Of a stretch of 48,356 bases of DNA, positions 20,592 through 44,407 are shown piece after piece. A model generated the notes under the pieces. That model saw only the letters and a list, made by a program, of their open reading frames with translations. It did no database searches and was not told the DNA's origin. The stretch is taken from contig JAUNTY010000017.1 in assembly GCA_030538415.1 (NCBI GenBank), positions 1 through 48,356 on the forward strand, written 5' to 3'. The translations under genes were made by a program, and so were the position numbers. Source of the DNA: Neisseria sp. (GTDB lineage Bacteria > Pseudomonadota > Gammaproteobacteria > Burkholderiales > Neisseriaceae). The stretch's first letter is position 1. Each line of letters starts with the position of its first letter.

Positions 20592-20796
20592 TAACCTTTG
20601 CAAAAAATAACCGTCGCACCCGCGCAGGCGGGTGCACAATGCGAAGCGCAGCTTTGCTTGTCTACCTGTTTTTATGATTCTAAAAATCCAATATTCATCA
20701 TAAGGTTGCGTATTTTCAGGGCTGGCAAATTTGAGCGGAAGCGTTGCTTCAGACTGGGCACCCGCCTGGGCGGGTGCGACGGGCAGGAGAATTTTG
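20591..20796 (+). repeat. F1 mini-element with eroded right end
   Basis: The left end gtaacctttgcaaaa matches gagacctttgcaaaa with two changes. GC-rich subterminal inverted repeats (cgcacccgcgcaggcgggtg and its inverse) follow. The right end stops at gaattttg, with the terminal caaaggtctc missing, only a few bases from the sspB stop codon. Confidence 0.8.
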
Positions 20797-28189: not shown

Positions 28190-30160
28190 TCAACTGCCGA
28201 TGACGTCGCCATCGTTTTTGGTGATGACCACGGTGGCCGCGCGCGGGCGGCCGCCGTCGGGCCAGGAGGAAACGGCGGTCGGGTTGGCCGGATCGCTGTC
28301 ACCCGCGGCCGGCTCGCCCGGATGCTGGATGTTGATGAACATGGTTTTGTTGTCGGGCGTAAACGCAATGCCGGTCACTTCGCTGCCGTTGGGGCCGGTC
28401 AGGAAGCGGCGGTATTCATTAGTGCCGGGGATGGTGGCGACCATTTGGTTGTTGCCCATGCCCGCGTATTCTTTCAGATTCACGGTGGAAGCGGATACGT
28501 CGGTTTGAATCCACAATACGCCGCGGCTGTCGAACGCCAAGCCGTCGGGGCTGCCGAAATCGTCGCCGTTGATGTTGCCTTTGTGCTCGGCTTTGCTGGA
28601 ATTGCTGTTGCCCGCCAACACCAGAATATCCCATTTGAAGTTGCTGCGGGTGCCGTCGCCGTTGGCTTCCTGCCAATGGATGATGTGGCCGAAGCGGTTG
28701 TCGGCACGCGGGTTGGCCGCATCCACGCCGGGCTTGCCTTCGGCGCCGCGCTGGTTGTTGTTGGTGAGGGTGCAATACACGCTGCCGGACACAAACGGGT
28801 CGGCGGTAATCCATTCGGGGCGGTCCATCTTGGTCGCGCCCACTTGGTCGGCAGCCATGCGGGTTTTCACCAACACTTCACCCTGGTCGGCAAAACCGTT
28901 TGCGGCGGTGAGGCCGTTTTGGCCGTGCACCAGCGGCAGCCAGTCGCCCGAACCGTCTTCATTAAAGCGGGCAACATAGAGCGTGCCCTCTTCCAGCAGG
29001 CGCATATTGGCGGCGCGGTTGCCTGGCTGGTATTTGTTTTTCGACACGAATTTGTAGATGTATTCGAAGCGTTGGTCGTCGCCCATATACACCGCCAATT
29101 GGCCGTTGGGGGTAACGGTGACTTTCGCGCCTTCGTGCTTGAAGCGGCCGAGCGAAGTGTGTTTGCGCGGGGTGGATTTCGGATCGAACGGGTCGATTTC
29201 CACCACCCAGCCGAAACGGTTCGGCTCGTTGGGGTTGATTTCGCTGTTGAAGCGCTCATCCACCTTGCTCCACAGATAGCCGTCTTCTTCCTTGCCGATG
29301 CCGTAGCGTTTTTCCAAAGCCGTCGCGTTGCCGCTCGGATTGGTGAAAATATCGCTCCAGTTTTCTTCACAAGTCAGGTAAGTGCCCCACGGCGTGTAAC
29401 CGTTGGCGCAGTTTTGCATCGTGCCCAACACGCGTTCGCCGCGCGAATCGGCACGGGTTTTCATCAAATCATGGCCGCGGGCGGGGCCGGTGATGCCCAT
29501 CGGGGTGGAGGGTGTGATGCGGCGGGCATAGTTGGACGGGCGCACCACGTTCCAGCCGTTTGTGCCTTTTTGTACTTCGACGATAGAAACGCCCATGGCG
29601 TTTTGGCCTTTGCGGGCTTTGTTCAAATCCCAATTGGCCGTGCCGTCTTTAAACAACAAGCCGTTGTCGACGTATTCGTGGTTCATCGCCAACAGACCGC
29701 GGTTGCTGCTTTCCGAGCCGAGCGGCAGGGGGAAATAAGCCATGCCGTCGTGGTGCATACCGGCTTGCAGGGCTTGCTCTTGCGTGGTGTTGGAGGCATC
29801 GGTTTTAAAGGCGGGCATACGGCCGGGAATGCCGACGGGGTCGCCCCATTTGTAGAACGCGCGGGCGGTATAACCTTCCGGCACAATCACTTTGTCTTCG
29901 GCAGAAAACGGCACGGGTTTGAAACCCAAATTGCGCGCACGCTGCATTTTGCTGTCGAGCACGGCGGCTTGCGCGTTTTGGCTGCCGAACACGCCCAAGG
30001 GCAATGCCGCCGCCACACCCAAAGCGCCGCTGCTTTGCAGCATGGTGCGGCGCGATAAATGCACGTTCATCACATTGGAGAATACGGCATTGTTGCTCTC
30101 ATTGCTGATTTCGTCGGCGTGACTGTTTTTAATCAAATGTTTTTTTAATGGTTTGCCCAT
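28190..30160 (-). CDS. phoX: PhoX-family alkaline phosphatase
   Basis: This 656-residue secreted phosphatase frees phosphate from organic esters; characterised PhoX enzymes use iron and calcium. The N-terminal export signal is of twin-arginine type (HLSRRTMLQSSGALGVAAAL, then a site near NAQA), after a 35-residue leader. Family segments GNMQ-like VLGTMQNCANGYTPWGTYLT, CEENW, and FGSPDGLAFDSRGVLWIQTD are intact; the cysteine in NCANGYTPWG or TCEENW could be the iron ligand. The upstream region carries four phased PhoB-type repeats and a -10, so expression should rise under phosphate starvation. It is a single-gene unit. Confidence 0.93.
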   Translation of the reverse strand: MGKPLKKHLIKNSHADEISNESNNAVFSNVMNVHLSRRTMLQSSGALGVAAALPLGVFGSQNAQAAVLDSKMQRARNLGFKPVPFSAEDKVIVPEGYTARAFYKWGDPVGIPGRMPAFKTDASNTTQEQALQAGMHHDGMAYFPLPLGSESSNRGLLAMNHEYVDNGLLFKDGTANWDLNKARKGQNAMGVSIVEVQKGTNGWNVVRPSNYARRITPSTPMGITGPARGHDLMKTRADSRGERVLGTMQNCANGYTPWGTYLTCEENWSDIFTNPSGNATALEKRYGIGKEEDGYLWSKVDERFNSEINPNEPNRFGWVVEIDPFDPKSTPRKHTSLGRFKHEGAKVTVTPNGQLAVYMGDDQRFEYIYKFVSKNKYQPGNRAANMRLLEEGTLYVARFNEDGSGDWLPLVHGQNGLTAANGFADQGEVLVKTRMAADQVGATKMDRPEWITADPFVSGSVYCTLTNNNQRGAEGKPGVDAANPRADNRFGHIIHWQEANGDGTRSNFKWDILVLAGNSNSSKAEHKGNINGDDFGSPDGLAFDSRGVLWIQTDVSASTVNLKEYAGMGNNQMVATIPGTNEYRRFLTGPNGSEVTGIAFTPDNKTMFINIQHPGEPAAGDSDPANPTAVSSWPDGGRPRAATVVITKNDGDVIGS

Positions 30161-30235: not shown

Positions 30236-30291
30236 AGCATAAGGCTTGAAGATGACACTTTGATGTGAATTAAATGACTGTTATGTGACAA
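30236..30291 (-). promoter_or_regulatory. PhoB-type promoter of phoX (tandem Pho boxes and -10)
   Basis: Read on the minus strand, four 7-mers TTGTCAC, CAGTCAT, TTCACAT and GTGTCAT follow each other with 4-bp spacers (30291 down to 30252). This is an exact 11-bp phase. TATGCT (30241-30236) lies 10 bp after the last. The consensus Pho box is CTGTCAT twice with a 4-bp spacer. The phoX ATG is 75 bp downstream of the -10. Confidence 0.75.
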
Positions 30292-30317: not shown

Positions 30318-30533
30318 TGAGACCTTTGCAAAACTCCCCTGCCCGTCGCACCCGCGCAGGCGGGTGCCTAGTGCAAAGCGTCGCTTTGCTTGTCTATCCA
30401 TTTTCTGATTGTAAAAAATCAAATTGAATCATAAAGTTGTGAATTTCCAAGGCTGATAAGTTTAAGCTGAAGCTATGTTTCAGGCTGGGCACCCGCCTGC
30501 GCGGGCGCGACGGCTATTTTTTCCAAAGGTCTC
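30318..30533 (+). repeat. F1 mini-element, complete, with 5-bp target duplication
   Basis: This 216-bp element has ends gagacctttgcaaaa and ccaaaggtctc. Flanks are ggcat at 30313-30317 and ggcat at 30534-30538. GC-rich subterminal inverted repeats follow each end, and the AT-rich centre has no reading frame. It lies 27 bp upstream of the phoX Pho boxes. Confidence 0.9.
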
Positions 30534-30670
30534 GGCATTTGACTTTGCCGTTTTAAGCAGGCATTTCATACTGAGGCCGTCTGAAAAAATTCTTGTGGCT
30601 TGAGCGCTGTTTCTCGTTTATCCAAACAAGGTTTCGTGGGCAGAGCCCACGCTACAAAACTGCCAAAATA
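30534..30670. other. Gap with DUS and REP class 2 hairpin upstream of the groEL terminator
   Basis: There is no gene here. It contains one DUS (about 30573) and, at 30635-30655 on the minus strand, GTAG followed by the palindrome CGTGGGCTCTGCCCACG. Confidence 0.6.
30635..30655 (-). repeat. GTAG-headed palindrome (REP class 2)
   Basis: This is identical in its hairpin to the unit at 13654-13674. It lies downstream of groEL, beyond its terminator. Confidence 0.65.
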
Positions 30671-30740: not shown

Positions 30741-32523
<1,783 letters not shown>

Positions 32524-35713: not shown

Positions 35714-35775
35714 AGCGAAGATTACTGAAACGGGGAAGCTTTGGTACGGCGATGCCTGACAATAGGCAATAGGCT

Positions 35776-36000
35776 GAGACCTTTGCAAAACTCCCCTGTC
35801 GGTCGCACCCGTGCAGGCGGGTGCCCAGTCTGAGGCAACGCTTCAGTTGCCCGCCGGGCACCGGTAATCGAGCAGCAGATACTAACTATTTGATTTTATA
35901 AATGAATGCCTCAGAAGCGTGCCAAACAAGCAAAGCTTTGCTTTGCACTGGGCATCTGCCTGCGCAGGAGCGACAAATATTATTTTTTTGCAAAGGTTTA
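35776..36000 (-). repeat. F1 mini-element, diverged
   Basis: This element of about 225 bp has left end gagacctttgcaaaa and a decayed right end caaaggttta. Flanks aggct (35771-35775) and aggcc (36001-36005) agree at four of five bases. The interior matches the F1 copy at 30318 in the opposite orientation. Confidence 0.8.
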
Positions 36001-39384: not shown

Positions 39385-40140
39385 TCAACCGAATTTACCG
39401 GTGATGTAGTCTTCGGTTTCCTTGCGTGCAGGGTTGGTGAATACCTGCTTGGTGTCGCCCACTTCAATCATCTCGCCCAGATACATATAGGCGGTGAAAT
39501 CCGACACGCGCGCGGCCTGCTGCATGTTGTGGGTGACGATGGCGATGGTGTAGTCTTTTTTCAATTCGCTCACCAGCTCTTCGATGTGGGCGGTCGAAAT
39601 CGGGTCAAGCGCCGAGGTCGGCTCGTCAAGCAGCACCACTTCGGGTTTGCTGGCAACGGCGCGGGCGATACACAAACGCTGCTGCTGGCCGCCTGAAAGC
39701 GAGTTGCCGCTTTGCTTGAGCTTGTCTTTCACTTCGCCCCACAAGGCGGCTTTGCGCAGCGCCCATTCGACACGCTCGTCGAGCTCGCTTTTGTTGAGTT
39801 TTTCATACAGTTTCACGCCGAAGGTGACGTTGTCGTAAATCGACATCGGAAACGGCGTCGGCTTTTGAAACACCATGCCGACTTTGGCGCGCAACAGGTT
39901 CAAGTCGATGTCTTTATCGAGGATGTTTTTGCCGTCGAGCAGCAATTCACCTTCGGCTTTCATGCCGTGATAGAGGTCGTACATCCGGTTAAACGTGCGC
40001 AGCAAGGTCGATTTGCCGCAGCCCGACGGACCGATAAAAGCGGTCACTTTGTTGGTCGGGATGTCCATGTTGATGTTTTTCAGCGCATGAAACGAGCCGT
40101 AGTAAAAATTGAAATTGCGCACGGCGATTTTGGTTTCCAT
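39385..40140 (-). CDS. pstB: Phosphate ABC transporter ATP-binding protein
   Basis: This 251-residue ATPase drives high-affinity phosphate uptake. Walker [10 protein letters not shown] is at 37-45, the signature LSGGQQQR at 148-155 and Walker B VVLLDEPT at 168-175, followed by SALDPIST and the switch histidine in IVTHNMQQ. It ends YITGKFG, as in other PstB proteins. It is the last gene of pstSCAB; AAGGAAACC lies before its start, 128 bp after pstA. Confidence 0.97.
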
Positions 40141-40268
40141 TAGAGGTTTCCTTGTGAATACTGTTTTCTGTTTTTATGTATAGCCGGATAACGCAGGGCT
40201 TACAGGGTGACGGCCGGCCACGCTGTCGTGTGTTGTGCATCCGGCCATATGTTTTCAAACGGCCTGCA

Positions 40269-41120
40269 TCAATGCTTTTTGCTGCCCAAGATGCGTGCGC
40301 CGATGTTAGCGGCCAATACGGTCAGCGCGATCAGGAGCGCGGCAGCCCAGGCCAATTCGTGCCAGTCGCGGTAGGGGCTCATGGCGAATTGGTAAATCAC
40401 GTTGGGTAGGTTGGCAATCGGCTGATTCATGTTGGTGCTGAAGAATTGGTTGTTCAGCGCGGTAAACAGCAGCGGCGCGGTTTCGCCGGAGATGCGGGCA
40501 AAGGCGAGCAATACGCCGGTCAACACGCCTGCCTGGGCGGCTTTCAAGGTCACCATCGTCACCAGCTTCCATTTGGGCGTGCCGAGTGCGTAGGCGGCTT
40601 CGCGCAGGCTGTTGGGCACGAGCTTGAGCATATTCTCGGTGGTGCGCACCACCACGGGAATCACCAGCAGCGACAGCGCCAATGCGCCCGCCCAACCTGA
40701 AAAGTGGCCTTGCTGCACTACAATCAGTTCGTAAATAAACAGACCGATGACGATAGACGGCGCGGAGAGCAGGATGTCGTTCATAAAGCGGGTAGCGGCG
40801 GCCAGTTTGCTGCGCTGGCCGAATTCCGCCAGAAAAATACCGCACAAAATGCCGATGGGCGTACCGACCAAGAGGCCGAACAAGGTAATCAGCAAACTAC
40901 CGAAAATGGCGTTGCGCAAACCGCCTTCCATACCGGGCGGCGGTGTGTCAAGGGTGAAAATGTGCGCGCCCAAGCCGCTGAAGCCTTCGTAAAACAGGGT
41001 GTAGAAAATCCAGCCCAACCAGAAGAGGCCGAAAGCCATGGTCAGCCAAGACATCAGCAGGTTGAATCGGCTGACGAGGCGGCGGCGGCGGTAGACTGCG
41101 TTATTCATATCGTTTGACAT
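40269..41120 (-). CDS. pstA: Phosphate ABC transporter permease PstA
   Basis: This 283-residue inner-membrane permease has six membrane segments. The cytoplasmic coupling motif [23 protein letters not shown] contacts PstB. The N-terminus is basic ([11 protein letters not shown]). It forms the channel with PstC. It begins 18 bp after pstC, with AAGGAACC upstream. Intact. Confidence 0.96.
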
Positions 41121-41138
41121 AAACGGGGTTCCTTAACC

Positions 41139-42095
41139 TTAATGTGAGCGGCCTTCATTGCGCTGCATGCGCAACAGCATCAGTTTGGAAATACACAACA
41201 CCACAAAGGTAATCACAAACAGGATCAAGCCCAAGTAAAGCAGTGACGAAAGGTGTAGCGGATCAACGGCTTCGGCAAATTCGTTGGCCAATGCGGAGGT
41301 AATCGATACGCCGGAGTTATAGAGGCTGGCGCTGATGTTGAAGGTGTTGCCGATGATGAAGGTGACGGCCATGGTTTCGCCGAGCGCGCGGCCGAGGCCG
41401 AGGATGATACCGCCGACCACGCCGGCCTTGGTGTAGGGCAACACGACATAGCGCACCACTTCCCAGGTGGTCGAGCCCAAACCGTAGGCAGATTCTTTCA
41501 GCATCGGCGGGGTCACTTCAAATACGTCGCGCATCACTGACGCGATAAACGGGATAATCATGATGGCCAGAATCAAACCGGCGGCAAAGAGGCCGATGCC
41601 CATCGGCGCACCTTGGAAAAGCGCGCCGACAACCGGAATCGGGCCGAGATATTTGATGAAAAACGGCTGAATGTAGTCGGAAAACACCGGGGCGAATACA
41701 AACAAACCCCACATACCGTAAATAATCGAGGGAATACCGGCCAAAAGTTCGATACAGATACCGAGCGGACGGCGCAGAAAAGCCGGACACAGCTCGGTCA
41801 GAAAAACGGCAATACCGAAGCTGACCGGCACGGCAATCGCCAGTGCAATGAATGAGGTGACCAGCGTACCGTAAATCGGTGCGAGTGCGCCATATTTGCT
41901 TTGCACGGTATCCCAATCGGAGGAGGTGAAAAAGCCGAAGCCGAATTCACGCATACTCGGTAACGCGCCGATGACCAGCGAAATCAGGATGCCGCCCAAA
42001 CTGGCCAACACCAAGATCGCAAACAGGCGGGTGGTGCCGACAAACAAGGTGTCGAACAGCCGCTGCTGCTTCAGTTTTTGTTGGAGAGTGCTCAT
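41139..42095 (-). CDS. pstC: Phosphate ABC transporter permease PstC
   Basis: This 318-residue permease has six membrane segments and the coupling region [21 protein letters not shown]. Segments [20 protein letters not shown] and [21 protein letters not shown] are family hallmarks. It pairs with PstA. A DUS hairpin (42144-42191) separates it from pstS, so it may be made in smaller amounts than the binding protein. Confidence 0.96.
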
Positions 42096-42143
42096 GATTA
42101 GGTTCTTTTATCCATTAATCAGATTTTGCTACAAAGCGTAAAT

Positions 42144-42191
42144 AATCAGGCCGTCTGAAACACCGCCTAATGGCTTTCAGACGGCCTGATT
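42144..42191 (-). terminator. DUS hairpin between pstS and pstC
   Basis: The 17-bp stem aatcaggccgtctgaaa and its inverse have a 14-nt loop, right after the pstS stop. It can act as a partial terminator or 3' end stabiliser that favours PstS over the permeases. Confidence 0.7.
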
Positions 42192-42201
42192 TTAGAGCAG
42201 A

Positions 42202-43314
42202 TTAATAAACCGCAGCACCATTGGCATCGGTGATTTGTTTCCACTCTTCACGTACCAAATCTTTCACACTGGCAGGCAGCGGCACATAATCCAATTTGGC
42301 CGAAGCTTCGTCGCCATTGTTGTAAGCCCAGTCGAAGAAGCTCAACACGGCTTTGGCTTTGGCAGCATCATCCGCTTTTTTGTGTACCAAAATGAAAGTG
42401 GCGGCAGCCAGCGGCCAGGCTTGGTCGGCAGGCTGGTCGGTCAGCACCAGGCTGAAGCCCGGAACGCTCTTCCAGTCTACGTCAGCCGCGGCGGCAAAGG
42501 TTTCTTGCGAAGGCTGAACAAAGTTACCGGCTTTGTTTTGCAGCTGCACGTGCGACATGTTGTTTTGCTTGGCGTAAGCATATTCCACATAACCGATGGA
42601 GTTTTTCACGCGGTTTACATAAGTGGAAACGCCTTCATTGCCTTTACCCGCCGCGCCCGAGCTTGAAGTGGGCCATTTCACGGTGTTGGCAGCACCAACG
42701 CCGTCTTTCCAGCTTTGGGATACCTGACTCAGATAAGTGGTGAAAATAAAGCTGGTGCCCGAGCCGTCTGAACGGAATACGGTGGTAATCGGCGCATCCG
42801 GCAGCGTCAACCCTTCGTTGAGTGCGGTGATTTTTGCGTCATTCCATTTGGTAATATTGCCCAGATAAATATCGGCCAACACTTCGCCGGTCAGCTTCAA
42901 CGCGCCCGGCTCAATGCCGTCTACGTTCACCACCGGCACCACGCCGCCAATCACGGTCGGGAATTGAACCAAACCTTCTTTTTCCAGATCTTCCGCTTTC
43001 AGGGGCGAGTCAGAGGCGCCGAAATCAACGGTTTTGGCAGTAATCTGCTTCACACCGCCCGAAGAACCGATAGACTGATAATTGATGCGGCCGCCGGTCG
43101 CACCCTGGTAAGCTTGAGCCCATTGCACATAAATCGGTTGCGGGAAAGAAGCACCGGCACCGGTCACGTCTAAGGTGACGGCTTCACCGGATGCGGCAGG
43201 AGCCGTTGACGCAGCCTGTTGCTGGGTAGCCGGAGTAGTGGTGCTCTCCGAACCGCCGCAGGCAGCAACGGCAAATGCAGTAATCAAAGCAGCAGACAAA
43301 ATACGGATTTGCAT
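42202..43314 (-). CDS. pstS: Phosphate-binding lipoprotein PstS
   Basis: This 370-residue binding protein of the Pst system has a lipoprotein signal (ITAFAVAAC, lipidated C19), then a low-complexity Thr/Gln/Ala linker. The mature domain has TGAGASFPQPIYVQWAQAY, SSGGVKQI, DFGASDSPL and the phosphate loop RSDGSGTS (181-188). A DUS (42763-42772) encodes part of that loop. It ends in VKDLVREEWKQI. It is the first gene of pstSCAB; upstream are a weak Pho-box series and a DUS hairpin. The lipid anchor contrasts with the soluble PstS of enterobacteria. Confidence 0.96.
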   Translation of the reverse strand: MQIRILSAALITAFAVAACGGSESTTTPATQQQAASTAPAASGEAVTLDVTGAGASFPQPIYVQWAQAYQGATGGRINYQSIGSSGGVKQITAKTVDFGASDSPLKAEDLEKEGLVQFPTVIGGVVPVVNVDGIEPGALKLTGEVLADIYLGNITKWNDAKITALNEGLTLPDAPITTVFRSDGSGTSFIFTTYLSQVSQSWKDGVGAANTVKWPTSSSGAAGKGNEGVSTYVNRVKNSIGYVEYAYAKQNNMSHVQLQNKAGNFVQPSQETFAAAADVDWKSVPGFSLVLTDQPADQAWPLAAATFILVHKKADDAAKAKAVLSFFDWAYNNGDEASAKLDYVPLPASVKDLVREEWKQITDANGAAVY

Positions 43315-43361
43315 AATATTCTCTCTCTTGAAAAAAGATGTTTGGTTTGGCTAACGGCATC

Positions 43362-43406
43362 AGTTTAAGAAAGCTTTGTTTCAACTGTGTGACAACAATT
43401 ACAAAG
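43362..43406 (-). promoter_or_regulatory. Candidate PhoB-type promoter of pstS (weak)
   Basis: On the minus strand CTTTGTA, TTGTCAC and TTGAAAC are phased by 11 bp (43406 down to 43378). TAAACT (43367-43362) lies 10 bp after the last. Only the middle repeat is close to CTGTCAT, but the layout equals that of phoX and phoU. Confidence 0.4.
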
Positions 43407-43499
43407 TCTTACGTTTTTACCATCACCACTTCCAACTGCATTGATTTTTAAAGATTAAATATATAAGAGTGGTTTTTTTGCCGCTAACGAAATCCTACA

Positions 43500-43548
43500 T
43501 TTGATGACAGGCCGTCTGAAACCTGCTTTCAGACGGCCTGTCATCAAA
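43500..43548. terminator. Long DUS hairpin between phoU and pstS
   Basis: A perfect stem of about 22 bp (tttgatgacaggccgtctga... and its inverse) has a 5-nt loop. It lies between the phoU terminator and the pstS promoter. Confidence 0.75.
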
Positions 43549-43580
43549 TATAGTCGGAGAAATGAGTTTCTCCGACTATA
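43549..43580. repeat. Minimal 32-bp palindrome made of two type C ends
   Basis: tatagtcggagaaa-tgag-tttctccgactata: only the two outer ends of a type C element remain, fused at the sequence atgag. It sits exactly between two hairpin terminators. Confidence 0.8.
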
Positions 43581-43583
43581 CCA

Positions 43584-43608
43584 TAAAAAAGGCAGCCTTC
43601 CGGCTGCC
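43584..43608 (-). terminator. Terminator of phoU
   Basis: The stem ggcagcc / ggctgcc with a short loop and an adjacent six-A run on the plus strand lies 23 bp past the phoU stop. Confidence 0.9.
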
Positions 43609-43631
43609 AAATCTGCTTGCCGCAGGAAATC

Positions 43632-44333
43632 TCATTCGCCCAGATTTTGTTTGATTTCATCCAAAGGTGTATGACGCACATCAATGCCGCGTGTCAGATA
43701 AACCACGTGTTCGGCAATATTGGTTGCATGATCACCAATCCGCTCGACCGCCTTGTTCATCATCATCACATCCAGCCAAACGCCGATGCTGTGCGGATCT
43801 TCCATCATGCGTGTAACCAGCAGGCGCGTCTGATTGCGGTAATCGGTATCCAGTTTGCGGTCAGACTCGCGCAAATTGACAATAGCCAAATCATCCAACC
43901 GGGCAAAAGCATCCAGCGAGCGACGAATCATCGGCATGGTCATTTCCGCAATTCGGTGGGTATCGTAAAGCTCGGTAGTGGTGGTGCGGTTGTGCGACAG
44001 TAACTCATGCGCAGTCAGCGCAATCTTTTTCAATTCGTCACCAATGCGTTCCAAATCCACAATCACCCGGCTTACCGCCAAAACAAAACGCAAATCACCG
44101 GCAGCAGGCTGACGGCGGGCAATAATGGTTTGGCACTCGTCATCAATCTGTATTTCCAAATCATTAATTGCACCGTCTCCGTCAATCACAGCGGCCAAAC
44201 CTGACACATCGCTGCCCGACAACGCTTCCAATACCGACTGCAACTGGCGCTCCACCAAACCGCCCATGCGCATGACTTCAGTGCGCACATTTTCCAACTC
44301 TTGATTAAAATGGGATGAAATATGTTCGGCCAT
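43632..44333 (-). CDS. phoU: Phosphate-uptake regulator PhoU
   Basis: This 233-residue cytoplasmic all-helical protein has two PhoU three-helix domains and damps the Pho response at the PstB/PhoR level. Metal-binding motifs are DLERIGDELKKIA and VERIGDHATNIAEHVVYL. The start ATG at 44333 has AGGAG six bases upstream and gives the normal start AEHISSHFNQELENV. Unlike many genomes it lies upstream of pstSCAB, with its own terminator and its own PhoB-type promoter. Confidence 0.95.
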   Translation of the reverse strand: MAEHISSHFNQELENVRTEVMRMGGLVERQLQSVLEALSGSDVSGLAAVIDGDGAINDLEIQIDDECQTIIARRQPAAGDLRFVLAVSRVIVDLERIGDELKKIALTAHELLSHNRTTTTELYDTHRIAEMTMPMIRRSLDAFARLDDLAIVNLRESDRKLDTDYRNQTRLLVTRMMEDPHSIGVWLDVMMMNKAVERIGDHATNIAEHVVYLTRGIDVRHTPLDEIKQNLGE

Positions 44334-44373: not shown

Positions 44374-44407
44374 ATCATAAAACAGTTTGATGACAAAATC
44401 TTGACAG
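44374..44407 (-). promoter_or_regulatory. PhoB-type promoter of phoU (Pho box and -10)
   Basis: On the minus strand CTGTCAA-gatt-TTGTCAT (44407-44390) matches the Pho box with six of seven bases in each repeat. TATGAT (44379-44374) follows after exactly 10 bp, as at phoX. A third phased repeat, CTGTTTT, lies in between. The start codon is 40 bp downstream of the -10. Confidence 0.75.

Follow-up and report, generated by a model that had tools for sequence, protein, structure and literature searches.

The window analysed here, a stretch of 48,356 bp from the genome of a Neisseria sp., carries the genes for an alkaline phosphatase, PhoX, and for the phosphate transport proteins PstSCAB and PhoU (Table 1). 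The sequence-only reading had named a secreted phosphatase gene downstream of a set of repeats as phoX, and the PhoX domain supports this name (PF05787, E = 3e-174, >580 bits with a cut-off of 24). The TAT_signal model (PF10518) matches residues 35-54 of PhoX with 22.0 bits, slightly below the cut-off of 22.7, and an RR pair is visible by eye in the protein sequence.

Table 1. Positions of the features, in window coordinates unless a contig is named.
Feature	Position	Strand	Description
phoX promoter	30236-30291	-	two Pho boxes in tandem (four 7-mers, phase 11 bp), then 10 bp, then the -10 element TATGCT
half-site 1	30291-30285	-	TTGTCAC
half-site 2	30280-30274	-	CAGTCAT
half-site 3	30269-30263	-	TTCACAT
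half-site 4	30258-30252	-	GTGTCAT
spacer		-	CTTCAAGCCT (10 bp)
-10 element	30241-30236	-	TATGCT
phoX	28190-30160	-	alkaline phosphatase PhoX, probable twin-arginine signal; ATG at 30160
groEL	30741-32399	-	upstream of phoX, same orientation
phoU promoter	44374-44407	-	CTGTCAA-4-TTGTCAT-10 bp-TATGAT; rank 1, other-genome model
phoU	43632-44333	-	PF01895; TIGR02135 186.8 bits, cut-off 130
pstS promoter	43362-43395	-	TTGTCAC-4-TTGAAAC-10 bp-TAAACT; rank 2, other-genome model
pstS	42202-43314	-	phosphate-binding protein; TIGR00975 382.7 bits, cut-off 205
pstC	41139-42095	-	TIGR02138 306.8 bits, cut-off 196
pstA	40269-41120	-	TIGR00974 276.5 bits, cut-off 193
pstB	39385-40140	-	TIGR00972 402 bits, cut-off 343
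phoB	C55:30670-31341		TIGR02154; phoR directly after

The minus strand upstream of phoX, from 30291 to 30236, reads TTGTCAC-ATAA-CAGTCAT-TTAA-TTCACAT-CAAA-GTGTCAT-CTTCAAGCCT-TATGCT. Two 7-bp repeats similar to CTGTCAT, 4 bp apart and at an 11-bp phase, define a Pho box, and this arrangement is found here. Compared with [CT]TGTCA[CT], the four half-sites agree in 7, 6, 5 and 6 of 7 positions, in order, and the third half-site is the weakest as it agrees in only five. The site was scored for four half-sites at the 11-bp phase, followed by 10 bp and TA...T (maximum 31). The 400 bp 5′ of phoX reach a score of 27, compared to a top score of 23 among 2000 dinucleotide-preserving shuffles of the same segment, none of which equals the phoX score. 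These values bear out the four 7-mers in exact 11-bp phase, with TATGCT 10 bp further on, that the sequence-only reading had described without giving the strand, which is the same as that of phoX. Other phases (8-10 and 12-14 bp, with spacers of 8-12 bp) give 16-19 upstream of phoX. The best other non-overlapping position on either strand scores 21, and the phoX site is the maximum of the window.

The phoU-pstSCAB genes (39385-44333) were overlooked in the sequence-only reading; every one of them passes the cut-off of one or more NCBIfam models. They are located in the same window and share the promoter layout of phoX. The distance of 10 bp between the box and the -10 element is identical at phoX, phoU, pstS and phoB.

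The stretch that separates groEL from the phoX box contains a repeat of ~228 bp (30318-30545). Complete or partial copies related to it are found at 20594-20782, 2-77 and 35775-35829 in the window, and it is also related to the segment L023:9351-9573, upstream of phoB. It looks like a small mobile repeat. Uptake-like words in the window are GCCGTCTGAA. Those 5′ of phoX in another genome of the genus (G029, locus L013), GCCTGTCTGAA, are of a different dialect and lie beside a Pho box of two half-sites.

PhoB, PhoR and candidate sites in the genome

The proposed phosphate control of phoX depends on the presence of phoB and phoR in the genome (referred to as G000, 106 contigs), and both genes are found. 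One protein is above the NCBIfam cut-off for PhoB (TIGR02154, 336.3 bits, cut-off 296.2), and the adjoining gene encodes PhoR (TIGR02966, 373.6 bits, cut-off 334.2). The matches of the two proteins to the stricter models PRK10161 and PRK11006 are below the cut-offs of those models. The phoBR genes are on a different contig from phoX, ~1.2 kb after proB. The sequence upstream of phoB, GTGTCAC-ATTG-GCGTCAT-10 bp-TATGCT, has the same layout as that at phoX. The genome encodes PhoB and PhoR as well as PstSCAB and PhoU behind Pho-box promoters, the components of a Pho regulon. The sequence evidence supports the phoX site as a predicted PhoB operator joined to a promoter, and points to its putative control by PhoB.

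Further sites were searched with a model (R1) built from sequence only and trained on 22 sites, all from genomes other than G000. The model has 10 matches in the window, with phoU, pstS and phoX at ranks 1, 2 and 3, and the upstream box of phoX at rank 5. In G000, with 150 of 389 candidates scored, there are seven matches at E up to 10, located at phoU, pstS, phoB, one unassigned position, phoX, ppk and one other position. The phoA, glpQ and pit genes of G000 are not among the matches from these 150 candidates.

A general pattern with up to three mismatches finds 51 sites in G000, compared to 45 for a reversed-pattern control. There is thus no overall excess, and the enrichment is confined to the best end. 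Twelve sites have two or fewer mismatches, and seven of them precede phoU, phoX, phoB, phoA, pit, ppk and glpQ, with phoA, pit, ppk and glpQ turning up unprompted; the genes downstream of the other five have no clear link to phosphate. The name pit is based on PF01384, as the sole NCBIfam match is to a sulfate permease and below the cut-off, and phoA is named from Pfam, its NCBIfam match being below the cut-off. Together with phoX, the phoBR, phoU and pstSCAB genes, and probably also phoA, glpQ, ppk and pit, would form a small regulon.

Several sites look like chance and were set aside. These are C29:17972 (no convincing gene), C45:46655 (ABC ATPase with TOBE_2), C57:4062 (DUF805), C74:22924 (ferredoxin-like gene), C90:77284 (short frame, glutaredoxin-like by eye) and C61:9463 (other gene).

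Distribution and promoter conservation in the genus

A sample of 46 genomes of the genus was examined, with matches at E of 1e-60 or better taken in for the PhoB search. PhoB is over the cut-off in 16 genomes, PstS is present in 11 (in a twelfth, G022, only residues 2-53 are matched), and PhoX in 7 (with the gene in pieces in G042). The distribution is fully nested, as all the genomes with PhoX have PstS, and all those with PstS have PhoB. PhoX is found in 7/16 genomes with PhoB and 0/30 without it (Fisher p = 2e-4), and PstS in 11/16 and 0/30 (p = 3e-7); both tests ignore relatedness, and the statistics are inflated because the genomes are related. Absences in G031, G032, G033, G034 and G042 carry little weight, as these genomes are less than 90% complete.

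The layout was tested gene by gene with 300 first-order resamplings each, at p of at most 0.02. It is found upstream of phoX in 7/7 genomes, of pstS in 11/11, of phoU in 6/7 genomes tested and of phoB in 5/16. The sites of these four genes had been seen by eye beforehand, so that this test is not blind, and the R1 scans and the scoring of ppk and pit (see below) are fairer tests. The best register differs from that used in training R1 in two cases, the phoX promoter of G003 and the pstS promoter of G017. A lack of conservation of the repeats 5′ of phoX in close relatives would have contradicted the sequence-only reading, and the layout is present in all seven phoX genomes. By eye, four half-sites are kept in three of these promoters and two half-sites in the remaining four.

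The position of phoB differs among the genomes. In the PstS-containing genomes with phoB away from pst, four out of five have the layout at phoB (G000, G003, G017 and G038, but not G033). Eleven phoB genes are without it. Seven of these are, by eye, behind a pstB frame (G001, G010, G011, G012, G029, G042 and G043), which is divergent in G043, and three are behind proB (G002, G028 and G031). In G011 and G012, a box is located before pstC, ~2.8 kb upstream of phoB. In G033, phoB is behind neither gene and has no scoring box, and none is present in the 242 bp tested at phoU; R1 reports a weak box near the start of phoU in this genome.

In G042 (85% complete, single contig), the phoX, pstS, pstB and phoR genes all appear to be broken into pieces (L016-L022, L269). 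These breaks may stem from the assembly and not from decay of the genes.

The ppk and pit genes are each found in 45/46 genomes. Their upstream regions were scored in 15 genomes with PhoB and 30 without it, using a weight matrix trained on neither gene and one copy per genome, also for pit in G042 and G043, which have a second copy. A line was set at 17 bits after the scores had been seen; the rank tests are independent of this line and ignore relatedness. For ppk, 7/15 genomes with PhoB are above the line, compared to 0/30 without it (rank test p = 7e-4), and for pit the numbers are 9/15 and 0/30 (p = 1e-5). The best ppk score in the absence of PhoB is 12.4 bits, and 8/15 genomes with PhoB have no ppk site above 17 bits. 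The best pit score in the absence of PhoB is 16.9 bits (G006), just below the line and exceeding 6/15 genomes with PhoB. The ppk upstream region of G010, where the locus is truncated, scores 23.9 bits.

Across the genus, R1 has 59 matches at E up to 1 in the 16 genomes with PhoB, a number that includes the training sites, although G031 has no match. The 30 genomes without PhoB have 14 matches. Examination of 17 matches from PhoB-containing genomes, located outside G000 and being neither training sites nor at known phosphate genes, shows that nine precede phosphate genes identified computationally (two phoU, three pstC and two GDPD genes, an alkaline phosphatase and PHO4). A tenth match is before an MFS transporter that is GlpT-like by eye, and seven have no link to phosphate. 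Ten of the 14 matches in genomes without PhoB were examined as well, and all but two, in G016 and G040 (see below), look like chance.

A protein of 247 residues with no Pfam match lies behind a Pho-box-like site in G017 (L277:106-849). It is a possible new member of the regulon.

Proposed control of phoX

We estimate a probability of roughly 0.93 that the phoX site is a PhoB operator combined with a sigma-70 promoter, giving starvation-induced expression of PhoX within a small regulon. This reading is based on the sites and genes observed, on how far they are conserved, and on their occurrence together with PhoB. The steps of phosphorylation, binding, recruitment of polymerase and induction are modelled here on the E. 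coli system. With plentiful phosphate, PstSCAB-PhoU would hold PhoR off, and when phosphate is short, PhoR would phosphorylate PhoB. Two PhoB dimers would occupy the four half-sites, all from the same side of the double helix. The box would stand in for the -35 element, and the bound PhoB would recruit RNA polymerase to TATGCT. PhoX would be exported, presumably by Tat, and would act on organic esters outside the cytoplasm; the phosphate set free would be taken up by Pst.

The repeats could instead be bound by a different regulator of the OmpR/PhoB family. Eight further proteins in G000 match the PhoB model below its cut-off, the best with 180.8 bits, and direct repeats spaced in a similar way can be bound by other members of this class. 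However, the promoters are located at phosphate genes and phoBR, and the strong sites found at ppk and at pit track the presence of PhoB, which makes another regulator very unlikely. Alternatively, the promoter could be a relic, with phosphate control no longer active in this species, as relic-like sites are present in two genomes of the genus without PhoB, at a pstS-type promoter in G040 and a pit copy in G016 (see below). In the source genome, on the other hand, the reading frames of phoB, phoR, pstSCAB, phoU and phoX are intact throughout, and the phoX, phoU, pstS and phoB promoters keep the layout, so that loss of control is even less probable. That words similar to TGTCA have come to lie in this array by chance, in a spacer rich in AT, has a negligible probability: single boxes are common, as the pattern count against its control illustrates, but no shuffle equals the score of the four half-sites, the layout is kept in all seven phoX promoters, and R1 places phoU, pstS and phoX at the top of the window.

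The putative PhoB operator at phoX can be compared with that of E. coli, where the Pho box is located directly upstream of the -10 element, at ~10 bp, and replaces the -35 element. The targets of PhoB in E. coli include phoBR, pstSCAB-phoU and phoA. In comparison, phoX, ppk, pit and a GlpQ-type phosphodiesterase are additional likely targets here, phoU precedes pstSCAB and has a separate promoter, and phoBR follows proB on another contig. The phoX gene is a PhoB target in other proteobacteria, for example Sinorhizobium meliloti. The host here is of the Neisseria type, with TTGTCAY or CTGTCAY as the best half-sites.

The E. coli Pho box is described as two 11-bp direct repeats, each with a 7-bp core, CTGTCAT, and 4 less conserved bp (PMC2648988). 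The same core is given in a second report, according to which PhoB contacts sigma-70 (PMC4415409). The half-sites and their 7+4 structure match this description, in agreement with the known operator layout invoked in the sequence-only reading. In the related bacteria Laribacter hongkongensis and Chromobacterium violaceum, phoB and phoR are reported as adjacent, with pst elsewhere (PMC3135505). The arrangement here is similar, except that phoU is next upstream of pstS, while it is apart from pstSCAB in those two species.

Phosphate genes and their history in the genus

The same published comparison failed to identify phoR and phoB in either N. gonorrhoeae or N. meningitidis (PMC3135505), and a word search of a review of Neisseria two-component systems finds neither PhoB nor PhoR (PMC12697260). 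The view in the sequence-only reading that pathogenic Neisseria lack PhoB/PhoR agrees with the statement in PMC3135505 on these two species, and what is said here of the pathogens is based on these two sources. No paper on a Neisseria Pho regulon was found by title or start of abstract, within the terms and literature searched. A complete gene set for phosphate starvation exists in a genus best known for two pathogens without identified phoR and phoB. The PhoB/PhoR gene set is present in the source bacterium, and many relatives appear to be without it. The Pho regulon here is an ordinary one that is patchily distributed.

Unexpectedly, five genomes (G002, G028, G031, G041 and G043; loci L262-L266) have PhoB over the cut-off and have kept PhoR, and PstS was not found in them in a search with the G000 PstS only. 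A Pho box before pit scores above 17 bits in all five. We suggest tentatively that PhoBR persists in the genus after loss of the Pst transporter, although this is somewhat doubtful, the alternative being a diverged Pst that the search missed. If these genomes have really lost Pst, phosphate sensing by PhoR must be independent of it and may involve Pit, contrary to the E. coli model. These genomes provide a test case for such sensing. Upstream of phoB in G041, an apparent phoU-type promoter is followed by the end of pstB, by eye, an arrangement that a deletion of the intervening phoU-pst segment would produce.

Orphan sites are found in genomes with no PhoB over the cut-off. By eye, G040 has a pstS-type promoter beside a transposase-like fragment (L287:50-90), and in G016 a strong Pho box accompanies a copy of pit that looks degraded (L288). 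Both are likely relics of a lost regulon. The nested distribution (phoX inside pst, and pst inside phoBR) and the orphan promoters that seem to have stayed behind offer a natural series for regulon decay. A Ppk tree was built for 29 of the 45 ppk genomes, leaving out 15 with upstream stretches only and G010. The changes on the tree and the relic-like sites together favour repeated loss of PhoB in the genus, a direction that we infer. On this tree, the presence of PhoB changed at least five times, and one clade of 12 genomes has none.
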